DNA from: Collinsella aerofaciens
GTDB lineage: Bacteria > Actinomycetota > Coriobacteriia > Coriobacteriales > Coriobacteriaceae
Direction of reading: 5' to 3'
Length of the DNA: 40,062 nucleotides
Assembly (NCBI RefSeq): GCF_901212495.1
Contig: NZ_CAAKNY010000002.1
Span: 1-40,062, forward strand
Part shown: positions 14,304 to 35,503 of the stretch, piece by piece
How positions within the stretch are numbered: the first letter of the stretch is position 1
How the letters are laid out: every line of letters starts with the position of its first letter
Program-made: the position numbers and the translations under genes
Notes under the pieces: model-generated
Told to the model about the DNA's origin: nothing
Database searches by the model: none
What the model saw: the letters and a program-made list of their open reading frames with translations, nothing else

Positions 14304-17300
14304 CTAGTTGGTCTTGGCCTCGTGGGGAATGCCCTCAGTGTTGATGCGCGCCAGCGTGTACGTCACGTAGTCGGAGTTCGCATAGCCGGTGAGGTTGCTG
14401 ACGTTGGCCGGCTTGTCCTCGACACCGTTGCCGGTCATGCGTGCCGTAAGCACCAAGCGGTAGTTTGCATAGGTCCGCCCTGCCTTCTCAACATCGGTGT
14501 TCACCTTAACGCGGAAGGCATGCTTAAAGGCAAGGCTATTGCCGTCGCGCGTGGCGAACGCGCCGCCATTCCCCTTGCTATCAGTAAATACGTAGTTCTT
14601 GCCATCGGCGCTCAAAGAGCCGGTAACCAACTTGTCGCTACCGAGCACCGTAATGTAGCTTGAGATGTTATCGACCGCAGCATAACTGCCATCATTCTGG
14701 CGTTTCTCCAAGCTCAGCGTGTACTTCACCGTGCTGGCGTTGGAGATCATGGCCTCGGCGCCCGCGAGCTTGGAGAAATCATACGTCCCCACCAGAGCGA
14801 TCTCGCCGTCGGCGGACTTGAGGTCATCGATGTTGATGCCCAGCTGCGACTTCTTTGAAGCCTCGAGCGCAATAGTCGATGAGCCCACATCCATGCGGTA
14901 GTATCCAGCGCGACCATCATTGTATGCCGAGTTGCTACTGGTGCTGAGCGTGTCAGCATGCGTAGAGAGGTACGCACGGTAGTTTGGCTTTGTGTACTTA
15001 TCTCTGCCGCTATTCTGCGAAGCGATAATACCAGCCTGGCACGCAGGCTCCGTCATGGTTAGAGTCGCATTCATGGTGATGGTGAACTTGCTGCCATGAC
15101 TCTTGGCAATCTCGCGAATGCCGGAGAGATCGATGGCATTACCGTTAGCATCGGCAAGCACAAGCGACATGTCGCCGCCCGTTGCAGACCAGTCTTTGGC
15201 AGCAATCGCCGGCGTTTCCGTCGTGCCGGCATCAGTCCACTTAGAACCATCCCACGTGTAGTAGTTGTTCCCCACCATCACGTAGAACGAATACGTGCCC
15301 TGGGTTCCAGTCGGGTAGCCATGCGCGCCCGCAGCGCCGCTGCCCTGGTAGTTCACGAGCGAAGAATCCAGCTGGTAGTACAGCGCATCGGTAGTCGTAT
15401 ATTCCTGCTCGCCAAACGTGACGGTGTCGTCCACATCCATATCCAGCCGATAGGTCGTTCCTCTCACGGCCATCTGGTTGGTGCCCGATTTGTTGTCCAC
15501 CAAATTATGCTGGAAGTTCGTGGCAACGCTATACGTCGAGGCGGTGTTCTCGTGCGAGTCCTTCGTCTCATCTTTATTACGAAGCGTGTAGTTAAGATGC
15601 GTGTTCACGCTTGTCTTAACCGATGTACCGGTATATCCGTTGACGCTGGCCGAGCCCTTTGGCGTGCGAACAACAAGATAGAAGCTCTCACTCTTGGGCT
15701 GCTCGCCGGCCTTCTTCTTGGGAACCGTCAAGCTGTAGAACGGTTTCTTATCCGTATCGGTCTTTACGCGGTAGTAGTCGTTGCCGATCTTCGCGCCAGC
15801 AATACCGGCTAGTTCGGCTTCGGTCTTCTCGCCCTTCTCCTTATTAGTCAGCTTAACCCACGTGCCGTCGTCCGCTTCTGTTGCCGTCGCGCCCATGGTC
15901 TCGCTGAGCCACTGCTCCGTATAGTGATTTCCGCTGGAGTCCTCAAAGTCCGTCAGCGCAACCGATGCGCAGGATCCTCCCTCGGGCACCGTGTAGTGAT
16001 ATTCCTTGTTATTGTGCGCCATATCCACGAGCGTCAGCTGCGCGCCCACAGGCAGCGCCCCCTTTTTTCCGCCGAACTCAATGCGCTTGTTAAGCGGCCT
16101 CATGTCGCCGCCGCTTGCCAGGTGCGTATTCCAGCCATACTCCGTCTCCTGGGCATACGCCTTGTTGTATGCCCAGGTAAGATAGCCCGTCATAGTCTCG
16201 CCGCTGCTAATGAGCACGTGCTTGTCGTACTTGGTGCTGTAGTCGGCGCTGTTGAAGTTCGAGCCCTCGGAATACGTTGCCGTAAAGTTAATCTCGAGCA
16301 CGCGCTTGACGATGATGGGCACCATAACCTTGTAGCTCTGGCCGGCCTCGGTAAAGGTGACGGTGAGCAGGTTGAAGCGGCCCTTGCCGTTATCCCAGTT
16401 GGAGTTAGCACTGATCGACAAAGAAGATCCGCTGCCCTTAACGTCGAGCGCCTGGTCGGCAACATTGGTTTGCTTTACAAAGACACCGTTCTTGAGCTGG
16501 AACACGTCGACCGTTGCCGAAACGTGCGATCCTCCTGCGTTCAGGCGCAGCGCATCCGAATAACCACCGTTGGTAACAATGTTGAGATAGTCCTTAACGG
16601 TATCCGAGTCGTTGCCCGAAAGAACAAGGACATCGGGGTCGCTGCTTACCTGCGCGGAATTGGTGTCATTGTTCGCGCTGAACTTACCGGCACTGGAGGA
16701 TGAGTAGTTCGAGGTATTTTGATAGGCGCCATCTTTATCGATGCCGCCGATGTTGGTGTAGGTGTAGCGGCCGGTGACATTCTTCCTCGCTTCATCCTGG
16801 ATAGTCGATGCACCAGAAACGTTCACACCGTCACCGAACAGATAACGATCGGTGGTGTCGTTGTCGGAGGCACGCACCGCCAGCTTGCTCACGGGGCTCG
16901 TGGTCACGTAGGGCGAAACAGCTGCAGTCGTGCTGTCGGCCGCATCAGCGCCGTACAGCGTTTTGCTCGTTTCCGACTCAGTATGCGTGTCATTAGTAAG
17001 CGTGTCATTATAGTCACCAAACGCGATATACGACTTCTTGTTTACGTTGGCGACGGCGCTGTCATTGAAATACTTAATCGGTTTTTGAGCCGCAGAATTG
17101 TCAGACCGATCCTTAAGTATGATATCGACGCCCGCGGCGTAGAGGCCTTTGAAGTCAGCCGCATACTGCGCGGTATCGCCCAACAAGAAGCCCTGACCGC
17201 CCGGCTGCTTAAAATCGTTTTCGCGAATTAGAACGTTAGCAATCTTAATTGTGCCGGAAGCGGCACCGACAATGCCACCGGAATGATTTCTCAGGTTTCC

Positions 17301-29877: not shown

Positions 29878-31908
29878 CTACAGCTCGTTGGCCGCGTGAT
29901 ATGCCGTGCGAATGGCGCTCGCAATGTCGGCGGTGCGCTCGCCCGAGCAGTCGCCCACGCAGGTCACGGGCACCGTCACGCCGTCCAGGTCAAACGCATT
30001 GGCCTTGGAACCCACGGCCATCACCACGTAATCGCAGGCGATCTTCACCGGCTCCTCGGCGCCGTCCTCGGTGGTGCGAATGGCCTCCACGCCCTCGTCG
30101 GTAATGGCGGTCAGGCGGGTCCTCACGTGCTGCTCCACGTTGTGCCCGGCAAAGTCGCTCATAATCAGCGGCAGAATGGTCTCGGACTCGCCCGCGGCAA
30201 TCTTGTCGAGCATCTCGACGATCGCCACCTCGCAGCCGTGCTGCAGCAGATACTCGGCAGTCTCGGTGCCCACCAGGCCACCGCCAATGACGGCGACGCG
30301 GCCGCTGAGCTCCACCTTGCCGGCCAGCACGTCCCAGCTCGAGACGACCTTCTCCGAGTCGGCACCCGGAACGGGGATGACCACGTCGTGCGCGCCCACG
30401 GCCACAATCGCGGCGTCGGCGGCGTTGAGGTCCTCAGCGGCAGCGGCATAGTTGAGCTCAACCTTCACGCCCAGGCCAGGCAGAATCTTCTCGTAGTACT
30501 CGACCGAGCGCATGATCTCGTCCTTGCGCGGAGGCGCGGCCGCCAGCACAATCTGGCCGCCCAGATGATCGCTCGCCTCGTAGACGGTCACATCGTAGCC
30601 GCGCTTGGCCGCCACGCGCGCGGCCTCCAGGCCGGCAATACCGCCGCCCACCACGGCGATCTTCTTGTCGCCCTCGCCCGGCTTGATGGCGATGGTCGCC
30701 TCGTCGCCGTTCTCGGCATTGAGCACGCACGAGATGTACTTGCGGTTTTGAATCGCGTCGACGCAGCCCTTGTTGCAGTTGAGGCATTCGCGGATGGGCT
30801 CACCCGTGGCGGCCTTCAGCGCAATGTCGGGGTCGCACATGAGCGAGCGGCCATAGGCGATGATGTCGGCCGCGCCGTCTTCCAGAATCTTCTCGCCGGC
30901 CTCGACCGAAACCACGCGGCCGACGGTTGCCACCGGCACGGAGACCAGGGCCTTGACGCGCTCGGCAACAGGCAGCGTCCAGTTGTAGGGCATGGCGCCC
31001 ATGGGCGGAATGGTGTCGCCCATGTTGCCGGTGTGGTTTGCCTGCGCGACCTGGATCATATCGATGCCCGCGCCCTCGAGCAGCTTGGCAAACTCGCAGG
31101 CCTCATCGGGCAGCAGGCCGCCCTTGCCGCGCGGCGTGCCGTCGGGGTTCTCCATAATCACGGGGAGCTTGTACTCCACCATCAACTGCGGTGCGGCTTT
31201 CTTAATGGCGGCGACGACCTCCAGCGCGTAGCGGGCGCGGTTCTCGAACGAGCCGCCGTACTCGTCGGTGCGCTGGTTGAGGATGGCCGAGCACAGCGAA
31301 CCCACCAGACGATCGCCGTGGACCTCGATGGCGTCGATGCCGGCCTGCTGCGCGCGGGCAGCCGAGGCAGCGATGGCCTCCTTGATCTGGGTGAGCTGCT
31401 CCACACTCGCCTCGTTCACAAAGTGCTGCATATCGTGGTGCAGCTTGGCGTAGGCCTGCTTGCGGATCTCGCTGGACTCGGCCATCTTGGCGGCAAAGGT
31501 CTCCTCGTCGCCGGCGGCCTTGGCCTCCTGCGCGGCCTTGGCGGCAGCCATGGAACCCATGACCATGCGGCCGACCCCGGGCACGTCGTACTCGGGGTGG
31601 AACAGCTGCAGCGCAACCTTGGCCCCGTGCTTGTGGACGGCGTCGGCCAGCGCCTTAAACGTGGGGATCTGGGCGTCGGCTGCCAGCTTGGGCGTGGGGC
31701 TTGCGGTCATGACGGGAGCGACGTCGCCGATGACGATGTAGCTCACGCCGCCACGGGCCAGGCGCTCGTAAAAGGCCAGGCTGCGCTCGCCGATGGAACC
31801 GTCGCGCTCCTCGTAGCCAGTGGTCAGCGGCGGGAACATAATGCGGTTCTTAAGCTCAAGGGGGCCAACCGTAATGGGCTGGAGCAGCTTGGATGCAGGT
31901 GCGGTCAT
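29878..31908 (-). CDS. FMN/[4Fe-4S]/FAD enoate-reductase-type oxidoreductase (old yellow enzyme family)
   Basis: NAD(P)H-dependent reductase of the 2,4-dienoyl-CoA reductase/BaiCD/BaiH/trimethylamine dehydrogenase family; substrate unknown. About 676 residues. An FMN-binding TIM barrel (to about 370) is followed by the cluster motif CLNCNKGC plus a fourth Cys (C377, C380, C384, C396 counted from the upstream ATG), then an FAD fold with VVGGGIAGLEAARVAAKRG and an NAD(P) fold with VIGGGLVGTETAEYLL. The ATG at 31908 is preferred because GAGAGG lies 7 nt before it; ATG 31914 is 1 nt from that site. The usual HPGR/HxGR-type active-site text is changed to FHPEYD near 105-110, followed by a charged insertion (about 120-160). 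Monocistronic. Candidate substrates: bile-acid, cinnamate or other enone intermediates of gut metabolism. Confidence 0.88.
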   Translation of the reverse strand: MTAPASKLLQPITVGPLELKNRIMFPPLTTGYEERDGSIGERSLAFYERLARGGVSYIVIGDVAPVMTASPTPKLAADAQIPTFKALADAVHKHGAKVALQLFHPEYDVPGVGRMVMGSMAAAKAAQEAKAAGDEETFAAKMAESSEIRKQAYAKLHHDMQHFVNEASVEQLTQIKEAIAASAARAQQAGIDAIEVHGDRLVGSLCSAILNQRTDEYGGSFENRARYALEVVAAIKKAAPQLMVEYKLPVIMENPDGTPRGKGGLLPDEACEFAKLLEGAGIDMIQVAQANHTGNMGDTIPPMGAMPYNWTLPVAERVKALVSVPVATVGRVVSVEAGEKILEDGAADIIAYGRSLMCDPDIALKAATGEPIRECLNCNKGCVDAIQNRKYISCVLNAENGDEATIAIKPGEGDKKIAVVGGGIAGLEAARVAAKRGYDVTVYEASDHLGGQIVLAAAPPRKDEIMRSVEYYEKILPGLGVKVELNYAAAAEDLNAADAAIVAVGAHDVVIPVPGADSEKVVSSWDVLAGKVELSGRVAVIGGGLVGTETAEYLLQHGCEVAIVEMLDKIAAGESETILPLIMSDFAGHNVEQHVRTRLTAITDEGVEAIRTTEDGAEEPVKIACDYVVMAVGSKANAFDLDGVTVPVTCVGDCSGERTADIASAIRTAYHAANEL

Positions 31909-32044
31909 GGACATTCCTCTCTTGTAGGCGCGGCGGCGATGGTGCCGCGTAGTTGTCTAGAGGATATGGCATGGGAGTACAGCAGCACAACGGAAATCGG
32001 CGGATAGCAGGTAACGGCAGGTAGATGGGGCGGGGCAGCCCGTC
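31909..32044. other. Upstream region of the oxidoreductase gene
   Basis: No gene is supported. It should hold the promoter of the gene ending at 29878; no convincing -35/-10 pair was found. The alternating repeat array starts at 32045. Confidence 0.3.
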
Positions 32045-32427
32045 GGTTTGTCTCGATCTGTAACAGTTACTCAGCAAAACCGGGTCTTACTGTTACAGAT
32101 CGAGACAAACCAAAACCGTCCCGGCGGAAAATCTCAATCTGTAACATCTAGGCCCACTTTTGACCCCTACTTGTTACAGATCGAGACAAACCAAACCCGC
32201 CTGCTAGAACATCTAAATCTGTAACAGCTACCCGGCAAAATCCGTCCCTCGTGTCACAGATTCAGATAAACGGAGCCCGGCTGCCGAAAAATCTCGTTCT
32301 GTAACATCTATCGGCCAAAAACGGCCCCACGTGTTACAGATCAAGACATTCCCCTCAGCCCATCCTCAACAATCTCAATCCGTAACATCTAGGCCCGCTT
32401 TTGACCCCTACCCGTTACAGATTGAGA
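32045..32427. repeat. Array 1: 15-nt repeat alternating in orientation every 40 bp (10 copies)
   Basis: The word TCTCGATCTGTAACA or a close variant begins at 32051, 32132, 32212, 32292 and 32373, and its reverse complement (TGTTACAGATCGAGA) begins at 32091, 32172, 32252, 32332 and 32413. Successive copies are 40 or 41 bp apart and strictly alternate, giving five hairpins of about 55 nt at an 80-bp period, separated by 25-26-nt spacers. The first hairpin has perfect 22-bp arms (32045-32066 and 32090-32111). Spacers differ, but the spacers at 32147 and 32388 are close relatives. The array ends in TTTTGTTTGAGA, shared with array 2. No promoter or gene is visible within. Confidence 0.9.
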
Positions 32428-32530
32428 TTTTGTTTGAGATTTGCCGAGGGACTATATCCACGCGTCATCGAAGCCACTGCGACAGAGGTGCGACATTACT
32501 GCGACAGAGGTGCGAAATAGATCGACCACC

Positions 32531-33973
32531 TTACCTTATCGTGTAGAACTGTTTTGGGTCGTTATGGGATGAGCCGTGCCATTCGAGCAGCCCGTCTTCC
32601 TCAATTAACTTACCAAGCACCCGGCTTGCTGTGCGGCGATTTCTCCCGATGTGCGCTGCAAGCTCCCTTGCTGTCACCCTTCCGTTCGCAAAGGCCAACC
32701 TGATGGCGGCGAGCTCATACTCCCCCAATGAGGCGATCACCTCCGGTGATACCTTGTCCTCGAGAGCCTCGCTTCTCCTTACGGTTCTGGCAACGATATT
32801 GTTCTCAAGCGTTAGCTGAACCCTTGCCCCATCAGGTTCCGTGTAGACCGGATCATTGAGCAGAGAGTTTTGCATCTCGGTATAAATGCGCTTGACGCCC
32901 TCGTTTAGCTCCCGAACCCAACCAAATTCAACCAGCGTGCGCGCGATGCGTGGGTTGCGCGAGTAACGAGTGGTCCTCATGTTGTCGAGCGTCACGATAT
33001 TGGGAAGCGCGCCTGGACTGATGATTTCCAAACGGTCGTCGAACATCGAGACCCGGATGTAGTCGCCGCGGAACGAGTAGTCGCGATGTGTCACCGCGTT
33101 GACCAAGCCCTCGAACCAGGCGAACTCAGGATACTCAGGCACGGTCTGGAATTTCCCGTCGGGCCCCAGGAACTGAAATTCGCGGAGCATGCTCGAGGTG
33201 AGTTCGTAGGCGTCTTGGATCACCTTAGGCAGCGGCCCACAGAAGCTTCGTTCTTTCGTGATGTTGAGACGCTCGCCCGTCTCCATTTTGACGCCGTCGT
33301 AGCGCAGGACACGGACTCGCGCCTGTGGCATCATCGCGGACGGATCCAGCGCGAATAGCAGGGCTCCAGCAACGGTCAGCTTTTCGTCACGCATAAAACG
33401 ACGACTTCTAAGGACCTGCTCGTCGGAAACTTCGGTTCCAAGAATCCCTTTGTAGCGATCAAGCACTTCATGGTCCACGTCATCTAGGGAGGAATCCTCA
33501 ACAAGCTCGTCCTCGAAGATTCTCTGCCCCTTATCGTACTCGAGGGCAAATACCTGTTCGCGGCTGAGCCTCACGCTCTTGTCGTCCTGCCGCAAGAAAA
33601 CCTCGCCGTCGCTCACGCGAGCAACAGAGTGGTTGGTCGAGGCATCGATGTCCAAAACGAGAACGAAGTCCTCCTCGCCCGAAGAATTGACCACGGGGAT
33701 TCGGTCTTTGCGGACAATAGGGGTTGGCGTGCAAGTCGTGAGCGCAGCGCGCTCGAATTTCTCAATGTCGCGCGCGCCGTTACGCTTGAAGCCCGTTACC
33801 TCACCATTATCCTCGATACCGATAACGAGCTTGCCTCCCGCCGAGTTGGCGAATGCACTAATATGCTTCGCAATCTCCTTGTCATCCTTGCGGGCGCTCT
33901 TTCGATCGAAATATTGATTCTCCCTGAGGGTGGAAAAAAGAATCACATCGTTTGTCGCGATGGGTTGCTGCAT
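32531..33973 (-). CDS. Schlafen/AlbA_2-domain protein with RecG-C-like ATPase fold and winged helix
   Basis: Putative transcriptional regulator or DNA/RNA-binding protein of the COG2865 type. About 480 residues from ATG 33973, which has AAGGAGG at ideal spacing; the in-frame ATG at 33997 lacks it. The N-terminal AlbA_2/Schlafen domain (about 12-140) shows RENQYFDRKSARKDD, FANSAGGKLVIGIEDNGEV and HSVARVSDGEVFLR. The central part (about 260-400) is the HATPase_c_4-like region with EGLVNAVTHRDYS and DRLEIISPGALP. A C-terminal winged helix (about 410-475) has VTARELAAHIGRNRRTASRV. Such proteins are often annotated as RecG-like helicases, but no helicase motifs are present. It is flanked on both sides by the 40-bp alternating arrays, in the same orientation. 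Confidence 0.85.
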   Translation of the reverse strand: MQQPIATNDVILFSTLRENQYFDRKSARKDDKEIAKHISAFANSAGGKLVIGIEDNGEVTGFKRNGARDIEKFERAALTTCTPTPIVRKDRIPVVNSSGEEDFVLVLDIDASTNHSVARVSDGEVFLRQDDKSVRLSREQVFALEYDKGQRIFEDELVEDSSLDDVDHEVLDRYKGILGTEVSDEQVLRSRRFMRDEKLTVAGALLFALDPSAMMPQARVRVLRYDGVKMETGERLNITKERSFCGPLPKVIQDAYELTSSMLREFQFLGPDGKFQTVPEYPEFAWFEGLVNAVTHRDYSFRGDYIRVSMFDDRLEIISPGALPNIVTLDNMRTTRYSRNPRIARTLVEFGWVRELNEGVKRIYTEMQNSLLNDPVYTEPDGARVQLTLENNIVARTVRRSEALEDKVSPEVIASLGEYELAAIRLAFANGRVTARELAAHIGRNRRTASRVLGKLIEEDGLLEWHGSSHNDPKQFYTIR

Positions 33974-34231
33974 TGCCGCCTCCTTACATGGCTCCATAAA
34001 GAAGTGTAAGTCAAAGGCATCGTATAGACGGCCCCTACATAGCGGCCCCCTTTATTGTTTTTAAGACGTCACTGTTTCTAGTTAAGGATCGTTAAGGGTC
34101 GTCGCAGCTCCTTCCAATTGGAGTCTATCAATCGACAAGTCAATCCATCCGGCCCGTGATTATCGATAGCCCGTCCGCCTCACATAATAAAAAGAGTCAA
34201 GATTCACTCATAAAGGAGAGCAACAACAAAA
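33974..34231. other. Upstream region of the AlbA_2 gene
   Basis: No gene is supported. On the minus strand TTGACT (about 34007-34012) could be a -35 but lacks a good -10. GTTAAGGATC and GTTAAGGGTC occur in tandem near 34082-34102. Array 2 starts at 34232. Confidence 0.3.
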
Positions 34232-34366
34232 TCTCAACCTGTAACAGCTACTCGGCAAAATCCGTCCCTCGTGTTACAGATTTAGACAAACGAGGGCCGG
34301 CTGCCGGAAAATCTCGATCTGTAACATCTAACCGTCCAAATCGGGTCTACGCGTTACAGATCGAGA
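34232..34366. repeat. Array 2: alternating 40-bp repeat, 4 copies
   Basis: Same repeat family as 32045-32427: forward copies begin at 34232 and 34312, inverted copies at 34272 and 34352, exactly 40 bp apart. The first spacer (34247-34271) matches the array 1 spacer at 32227-32251 with one difference, and the next is about 80 % alike to that at 32267-32291. Array 2 is therefore a relative of units 3-4 of array 1. It also ends in TTTTGTTTGAGA. It lies between the AlbA_2 gene and the initiator tRNA terminator. Confidence 0.9.
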
Positions 34367-34415
34367 TTTTGTTTGAGAGGTTGAAAACCGTGCCGAAAAC
34401 ATGGTCGTCAGATAA

Positions 34416-34446
34416 CAAAAAAGCTCGCCGGCTAGGCCGACGAGCT
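34416..34446 (-). terminator. Rho-independent terminator of the initiator tRNA gene
   Basis: On the minus strand AGCTCGTCGGC, a CTA loop and GCCGGCGAGCT form a stem with one G-U pair, followed by six U (34416-34421). It lies 10 nt after the tRNA 3' end. Confidence 0.85.
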
Positions 34447-34455
34447 GCAAGTTCT

Positions 34456-34532
34456 TGGTCGCGGGGGCAGGATTTGAACCTACGACCTCCGGGTTATGAG
34501 CCCGGCGAGCTACCAGACTGCTCCACCCCGCA
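34456..34532 (-). tRNA. Initiator tRNA-fMet (anticodon CAU), CCA encoded
   Basis: 77 nt including CCA (34456-34458). The anticodon is read from 34496-34498. The anticodon stem has the three G-C pairs (GGG/CCC around CUCAUAA) typical of initiators, and the body closely matches the Escherichia coli initiator from memory (GGUGGAGCAG, GGUUCAAAUCC). The 1-72 pair is U-G rather than a Watson-Crick pair, consistent with initiator identity, where E. coli has C-A. It is a single gene with its own promoter and terminator. Confidence 0.95.
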
Positions 34533-34563
34533 ATGTCTGGGCGCCTCATGTGCGCAAGAAAGA

Positions 34564-34592
34564 ATATTAAGCGGGAGTTCGGTAAACGGCAA
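34564..34592 (-). promoter_or_regulatory. Promoter of the initiator tRNA
   Basis: On the minus strand TTGCCG (34587-34592) and TAATAT (34564-34569) are separated by 17 bp. The expected transcription start near 34557 gives a 5' leader of about 24 nt. Confidence 0.6.
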
Positions 34593-34687
34593 GGAAAATC
34601 TCGTAGAGCATAATTCCTTCATATTTAAAACCCCTCAGCCAGTATCACCGTCAACGGATCACAGCCGAGCGCCGTCGACGGCGCGTA

Positions 34688-34693
34688 TACAAT
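34688..34693 (+). promoter_or_regulatory. Probable -10 element of coaX
   Basis: TACAAT within GTATACAATGG, 36 nt before the ATG at 34730. No good -35 hexamer was found at 16-18 bp. Confidence 0.4.
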
Positions 34694-34729
34694 GGTGCGC
34701 GTCCTTTTATGCCAACACCGGGAGTAGAC

Positions 34730-35503
34730 ATGCTGCTCGCTATCGATATGGGAAACACGCAGACGGCCATGGGCCTGTTTGACGGAAACGAGCTGGTGCA
34801 GTCGTGGCGTATGCCCACCGACCGCTCCTATACCGCCGACGAGATCCACGTGCGGCTGATGGGCTTCTTTAAGATGTACGACCTCTCGCTCGGCGCGGTC
34901 GACGCGATCGCCTTTGCCGGCGTGGTGCCGCAGCTCTCGCGCGAATGGCACGCCGTGGCCGACCGCATTGCCGCGGACGCCATCGTCATCGGGCCACAGA
35001 CGGCCGCGGTGACCAAACTGCGCGCAGCGCGCCCCCAGGCCGTTGGTGCCGACCGCATCGCCAACGCCGTCGCGGCTGAGACCTTCTACGGCGCGCCGGC
35101 GATCGTGGTGGACTTTGGCACCGCAACCAATATCGATGTCATCGACGAGGACGGCTATTACATTGGCGGAGCGATCGCACCGGGCATCCGCATCTCCATG
35201 GACGCGCTTGCCGCCCGTGCCGCCAAGCTCGCCAGCGTGCCGCTCGAGGCGCCCGAGCACGCCATCGGCCGCGATACCGAGGAGTGCATCAAGGTCGGCG
35301 CCGTGGTGGGCGCCGCCGCCATGGCCGAGGGCTTGGTCGCGCGCATGAAGCGCGAGCTGGGGCGCGAGGACGCCACCGTTATCGCCACGGGCGGCCTCGC
35401 TAGCATCGTCGCCGATTCGACCGACGCCTTCGACGTGGTCGACGGACAGCTCACCATCAAAGGCATCTGCGAAATCTACCGCCGCATGCAGGAACTGGGA
35501 TAG
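34730..35503 (+). CDS. coaX: Type III pantothenate kinase
   Basis: Phosphorylates pantothenate, the first step of CoA synthesis, in the cytoplasm. 257 residues, normal for the family. ASKHA-fold motifs: AIDMGNTQTAMGLF (phosphate 1) near 3-16, GADRIANAVAA near 103-113, VVDFGTATNIDVID (phosphate 2) near 121-134, and GGAIAPGIRISMDALA near 140-155. The ATG at 34730 has GGGAG 5 nt upstream; an in-frame ATG at 34709 lacks a site. It ends TAG. It is convergent with the biotin-ligase-like gene at 35787, a pair often found together. Confidence 0.95.
   Translation: MLLAIDMGNTQTAMGLFDGNELVQSWRMPTDRSYTADEIHVRLMGFFKMYDLSLGAVDAIAFAGVVPQLSREWHAVADRIAADAIVIGPQTAAVTKLRAARPQAVGADRIANAVAAETFYGAPAIVVDFGTATNIDVIDEDGYYIGGAIAPGIRISMDALAARAAKLASVPLEAPEHAIGRDTEECIKVGAVVGAAAMAEGLVARMKRELGREDATVIATGGLASIVADSTDAFDVVDGQLTIKGICEIYRRMQELG

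Follow-up and report, generated by a model that had tools for sequence, protein, structure and literature searches.

Intergenic arrays of alternating 15-nt arms in one Collinsella clade, candidate duplex sites for a dimeric protein

One clade of the genus Collinsella carries, between its genes, arrays of a 15-nt arm that changes orientation about every 40 bp. The features of these arrays give roughly even support for and against considering them as clade-specific double-stranded sites for a putative dimeric or polymerising protein, whose role would probably be architectural.

Two arrays are present in the window, i.e. the whole stretch of 40,062 nucleotides of Collinsella aerofaciens DNA that was analysed. 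In array 1, ten 15-nt copies match TCTCGATCTGTAACA with 0–3 mismatches and alternate between + and − without exception. Their starts (32051, 32091, 32132, 32172, 32212, 32252, 32292, 32332, 32373 and 32413) and their alternation, already proposed by a sequence-only reading of this DNA, are borne out by the scan, as are the gaps of 25 or 26 nt, which correspond to a pitch of 40 or 41 bp. The window contains 15 matches at ≤3 mismatches, versus 0.47 expected and at most 2 in 100 shuffles. Fourteen of them sit in arrays, ten in array 1 and four (34232, 34272, 34312 and 34352) in array 2, which the earlier reading had missed; the stray match, at 16490 (3 mismatches), lies outside the arrays. With a profile built from the sequences of 36 units, the seven units that score on both strands of the window are the five of array 1 and the two of array 2. 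The locus displays the following features:

32051..32427, no strand: array 1, five palindromic 55-bp units, i.e. ten arms
32051..32105, no strand: array 1 unit 1; the inverted repeat reaches 32045-32111 (23 nt, 100% complementary)
32132..32186, no strand: array 1 unit 2, with a T-tract spacer
32212..32266, no strand: array 1 unit 3, with an A-tract spacer and the most diverged arms
32292..32346, no strand: array 1 unit 4, with an A-tract spacer
32373..32427, no strand: array 1 unit 5, with a T-tract spacer; 91% identity to unit 2 over 57 nt
34232..34366, no strand: array 2, two units (34232-34286 and 34312-34366)
32531..33997, minus strand: accessory gene between arrays 1 and 2, SLFN_AlbA_2 and HATPase_c_4 domains, 488 aa
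29878..31914, minus strand: gene flanking array 1, Oxidored_FMN and Pyr_redox_2 domains; start codon 136 nt from array 1
34456..34532, minus strand: tRNA-Met (CAT), flanking array 2, with its own terminator-like hairpin at 34446-34422

Directly beyond array 1, a 21-nt direct repeat is present in two copies (95% identical; window 32476-32518). The tRNA-Met locus, next to the SLFN_AlbA_2/HATPase_c_4 gene, contains differing DNA in several relatives, in the manner of an insertion hot spot.

The layout seen in the window is that of a whole family, whose 15-nt arm has the consensus RTCTCRATCTGTAACA (next bases included). Scanning 123 loci and the window at ≤3 mismatches yields 777 arms in 157 clusters. 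Neighbours of the +/− type are exactly 40 bp apart in 349 of 369 cases, 16 more being nested self-overlaps at 8 bp, and those of the −/+ type (n=234) are separated by 40 bp (131), 41 bp (94), 39 bp (8) or 38 bp (1); 17 neighbours have the same orientation. As 119 of the 142 clusters with at least two arms begin with a + arm, end with a − arm and have an even count, the unit is a +/− pair of about 55 bp. The linkers that join units, scanned for lengths of 23–28 bp, measure 25 bp in 161 and 26 bp in 115 of 284 distinct cases. The sequence-only reading regarded the spacers as part of the unit; this holds, since they share the layout xxTAG-SSSS-A/T tract-SSSS-CTAxx. It had also named randomly spaced single hairpins as the finding that would speak against it. 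In the complete genome G006, searched at ≤2 mismatches, 89 of 93 arms have a partner of opposite orientation 39–42 bp away and four have none; this genome has 18 arrays with at least two arms, and the stretches fetched from it include 44 units in these 18 arrays. The family consists of arrays, not of scattered single hairpins.

The exact hairpin pattern is found in at least 120 stretches of GTDB species genomes. Among the 80 stretches listed, 77 are titled Collinsella, the three others being Crickella, Treponema and Flagellimonas. The arm (≤3 mismatches) is absent from two of these three non-Collinsella stretches and from one viral locus; L025 and L123 show one 3-mismatch match apiece. A three-arm pattern is present in 22 of 43 Collinsella genomes, and a two-arm pattern in 23 of the 297 genomes of the order, namely the same 22 (18–48 units each) and G037 (one). 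These 22 array genomes are exactly those whose type III pantothenate kinase is 96–99% identical to that of the window (≤74% in the others). The array family is specific to this clade, the nearest relatives of the window within Collinsella. In four genomes that were reached by locus, there are 34–46 strict units each, and the reversed control pattern gives none. A profile search of 149 genomes of the order, using strict filters and counting at most 36 matches per genome, retrieved 12 clade genomes and one outsider, G029, a Collinsella outside the clade with four weaker matches (best E 2.1e-9), none of them located in the 400,000 bases covered of its contig C10; these matches may stem from contamination, from a transfer or from a small array that has diverged. 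The 38.9-kb IMG/VR contig L121 carries two units at 905-1045, near one end; judging from a spacer that resembles the array at G006 363704, this array may be the host flank of a prophage. A literature search that covered few subscription journals found no published description of the Collinsella arrays, which does not demonstrate their absence from print.

Flanking DNA sorts the 133 distinct arrays into 22 groups, with 1–8 units per member. They hold their chromosomal places between species, and whole 80-bp units are gained or lost. At the window locus, inspected by eye in the 22 array genomes, 15 genomes carry one array of one to six units, bordered by tRNA-Met and, on the other side, by the Oxidored_FMN gene or other DNA; among the remaining genomes, one has a single arm next to an insertion, three contain other DNA at this place and in three the contig ends too early. 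Alleles without an array have other DNA next to tRNA-Met, and no clean empty site was found there. At this place in G006 (L193, reverse complement), an array unit is split by inserted DNA, with one arm left.

Linkers in the same slot vary as blocks. For one orthologous unit compared between 16 genomes, the mean pairwise difference per site is 0.025 and 0.054 in the arms, 0.081 in the spacer, 0.20 in the outer flank and 0.39 in the linker; therefore, the arms and the geometry are kept and the rest drifts or is swapped. A comparison of first units (spacer 0.28) was discarded as unsafe, at least 4 of its 15 rows not being the orthologous unit. Of 308 spacers, 56 have a match within 4 mismatches in another locus group, as do 27 of 200 linkers, exchange counts to be read knowing that some of the 22 groups are probably one locus. 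Such matches being few, units are private at most loci, and ectopic exchange was rejected as a general explanation.

The arms of 246 non-redundant units hardly vary, although the constancy of columns 6–14 and 40–48 is partly selected by the fetching pattern, which demanded exact inner 9-mers in one unit of each locus (columns 0–5 are unaffected by this selection). Changes affect the left arm only in 162 cases and the right arm only in 157 (319 one-sided changes), and both arms in 73 cases versus 67.4 expected if the arms vary independently; the covariance analysis suggested by the earlier reading thus gives no compensatory signal. Sixty-six of the 73 double changes are complementary, 58 of them at pair 4/50, an R/Y pair whose common states are limited to A/T and G/C; a few units do show complementary arm changes (one of two double changes at pair 5/49; L179 and L007), which speaks against the protein-site reading. 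Within the inner 25-nt spacer, pairing ends at the first base beyond the arm in 209 of 246 units versus 167 expected. When units are oriented by their tract, pairs 15/39, 22/32, 23/31 and 24/30 show less pairing than shuffled columns (z -6.0, -6.3, -4.0 and -3.2, respectively). Pair 26/28 goes from z -11.0 before this orientation to +0.8 after it, its deficit being due to the central A or T run; as the avoidance of pairing persists at the other pairs, it involves more than this run. Linkers display a like avoidance at some pairs, e.g. 3/22 (z -5.1, 46 linkers). This pattern reads as selection acting on two putative duplex half-sites, long perfect palindromes being shunned. Such shunning may reflect palindrome instability.

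An activity as RNA, i.e. as multi-hairpin RNA, transcription terminators or 3' mRNA stabilisers, is thereby made unlikely. The inverted repeats are strong and the array folded as RNA reaches an MFE of -139.7 versus -74.5 for shuffles (z -12.2), but the inverted repeats alone suffice to explain this stable fold, and the stacked hairpins or multi-hairpin RNA envisaged by the sequence-only reading do not agree with arms devoid of compensatory change and a spacer that shuns stem extension. Furthermore, no Rfam family except tRNA reaches its gathering score in 31800-34800, and a terminator search found none inside the arrays of the window. Four miRNA models of Rfam (five rows) were rejected as chance-like, below their gathering scores. 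The gene neighbourhood offers some support to this alternative. Our own rough gene caller classed 94 of the 133 arrays, 41 between convergent, 33 between co-directional and 20 between divergent genes, whereas the gaps of at least 100 bp in array loci (n=293) comprise 74 convergent, 148 co-directional and 71 divergent ones; the convergent enrichment (41/94 versus 74/293) ignores orthology. Counted by locus group (n=22), seven are co-directional, five convergent, five divergent and five without clear class, so that convergent and divergent pairs each represent 5 of 17 groups; the arrays between divergent genes (20/94, and these five groups) speak against an RNA function. In G006, seven arrays are convergent, seven co-directional and three divergent, and one overlaps a gene call, as do 6 of the 133 arrays with rough calls. 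The distance from array to start codon is 118–378 nt (one member per group), and 23 nt for the closest single array (rough gene calls). No gene arrangement accounts for the arrays; as they occupy every arrangement, a chromosomal role is not singled out over gene regulation.

A REP/BIME-type element, in which a RAYT (Y1_Tnp) transposase would recognise palindromic units as single-stranded hairpins and copy them, has a similarly small chance of being the right explanation. The layout of BIMEs is alike, being extragenic, in many copies and with modular linkers (excerpted text of PMC2817692), and Y1_Tnp genes are found in 4/4 and 37/43 Collinsella genomes. However, Y1_Tnp also occurs in array-free genomes, and the consensus of 366 distinct units lacks, at its ends, the GTAG/CGTC tag of the REPs treated in the available part of PMC3733652. 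Among eight Y1_Tnp loci from four genomes, seven have no arm at ≤3 mismatches within ~1.5 kb on each side and one has a single 3-mismatch match. All six Y1_Tnp genes of G005 and G006 are >100 kb from any array listed, and in G025 the nearest array among the matches listed is ~36 kb from Y1_Tnp. Finally, compensatory changes are lacking in the arms, and the arrays stay at their places. A REPIN-like family in the RAYT sense, another suggestion of the earlier reading, is disfavoured, no RAYT link having been found at the Y1_Tnp loci checked.

It is slightly less probable still that the arms are the ends of non-autonomous, MITE-like transposons, i.e. terminal inverted repeats recognised by a lost or foreign transposase. 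Inverted arms of 15–16 bp do flank a short core and whole units vary in number, but loci are conserved in position and insertions are not expected to yield exact 80-bp tandem spacing; in G006 (one genome, ≤2 mismatches), there is one lone distant stray arm and no arm pair was seen around a gene. The poorest candidate is a function in recombination or phage attachment, which has been proposed for the dRS3/NIME arrays of Neisseria: foreign DNA does occur at the tRNA-Met flank in several genomes, one G006 array is cut by an insertion, an accessory gene separates the two arrays of the window and L121 has an array near one end, but tRNA genes are insertion hot spots regardless, most G006 arrays (18 in total) are intact and no link between the arms and an integrase emerged.

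Among the options of the sequence-only reading, a binding array for a dimeric protein fits best; its interpretation thus stands for the alternation, the spacers in the unit and, as a candidate, the dimer-site array, and is not supported for hairpin RNA and a RAYT-type REPIN. If the arrays are sites for such a protein, each arm would be a half-site recognised as duplex, and single or polymerised dimers would dock on the arms, with two-fold axes every 40 bp. The A/T tracts, at multiples of ~10 bp, could aid the bending or wrapping of DNA. Counted from the start of the arm, AAA/TTT centres concentrate at +27 (columns 26–28), +57 and +77/78, i.e. with spacings of ~30, 20 and 30 bp. Over 167 arrays, which include orthologues and hence are not independent, tract periodicity between 7 and 15 bp has its top power at 10.0 bp (z 38 versus 60 Markov shuffles), a period that coincides with the 8th harmonic of the 80-bp repeat; power is raised at 7.25 bp too (z 25) and not at 10.5 bp (z -2.5). 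Tracts phased slightly under the helical repeat favour left-handed writhe. Several units would then make a small nucleoprotein platform between genes, organising the chromosome or holding supercoils, and recombination between units, through gain or loss of whole units, would change its length.

A more detailed version can be put forward tentatively, its chances being clearly lower. The putative protein would polymerise on ~20 fixed intergenic lattices, which have a two-fold axis every 40 bp and A/T tracts at 10-bp multiples, wrap DNA in a histone- or BIME-like manner and be kept off the stretch opposite the origin, the strength of each platform being set by its unit number; this would be a lineage-specific way of organising the chromosome. 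In G006, dnaA is at 1751403, and the sampled GC skew is roughly consistent with that origin. An array-free stretch of 583 kb spans the point opposite dnaA and another one, of 620 kb, lies elsewhere. With 13 merged places and uniform placement, P is 0.30 for the largest gap and 0.016 for the second largest, in a test that leaves the core-gene layout uncontrolled, the three genomes compared being collinear. Avoidance of the Ter region by the arrays is suggestive only.

Various known systems resemble these arrays in part. CRISPR arrays share regular repeat and spacer lengths; however, the Collinsella repeats alternate, and their spacers have a common motif and are conserved across species at the same locus. 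Noc, SlmA and parS sites are likewise dispersed duplex sites marking the chromosome, a likeness to which the array-free 583-kb stretch of G006 adds, but they are short single palindromes, not lattices. A ParB/Noc-like paralogue was considered as a clade marker and rejected: ParB_N gives one match in 13 of the 22 array genomes, conserved near dnaA, and no extra copy marks the clade.

To our knowledge, BIMEs have no agreed purpose although they have been known for decades. In the excerpted text of PMC3898611, the neisserial NIMEs also consist of short inverted-repeat words set in intergenic arrays; there, dRS3 is a 20-bp palindrome, ATTCCC(N8)GGGAAT, unlike the arm consensus, RS units are varied (30–160 bp) and no 40-bp pitch is described. 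The closest likeness is with the BIMEs of E. coli and its relatives, in which, according to the same part of PMC2817692, alternating REPs form intergenic tandem arrays with linkers as modules and serve as platforms for IHF and gyrase. The sequence-only reading knew of no named element with this layout, yet BIMEs have it: both they and the Collinsella arrays are extragenic series of regularly spaced words in alternating orientation. They differ in that a REP is a palindrome with a GTAG tag, compensated changes and ties to RAYTs, whereas in Collinsella the repeated word forms no hairpin alone, the two arms change independently of each other, no tie to a RAYT was detected and ~20 loci share the 40/40-41-bp pitch. 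On sequence grounds, the chances are about level that the Collinsella arrays are of this interspersed-array kind and work like a platform for a putative protein. As an independent family that has the BIME layout but in which no transposase signs were found, they would make it possible to test, in a gut genus that is abundant, whether the layout itself is what functions; should a dedicated protein exist, it would be a sequence-specific architectural system that originated inside one genus.
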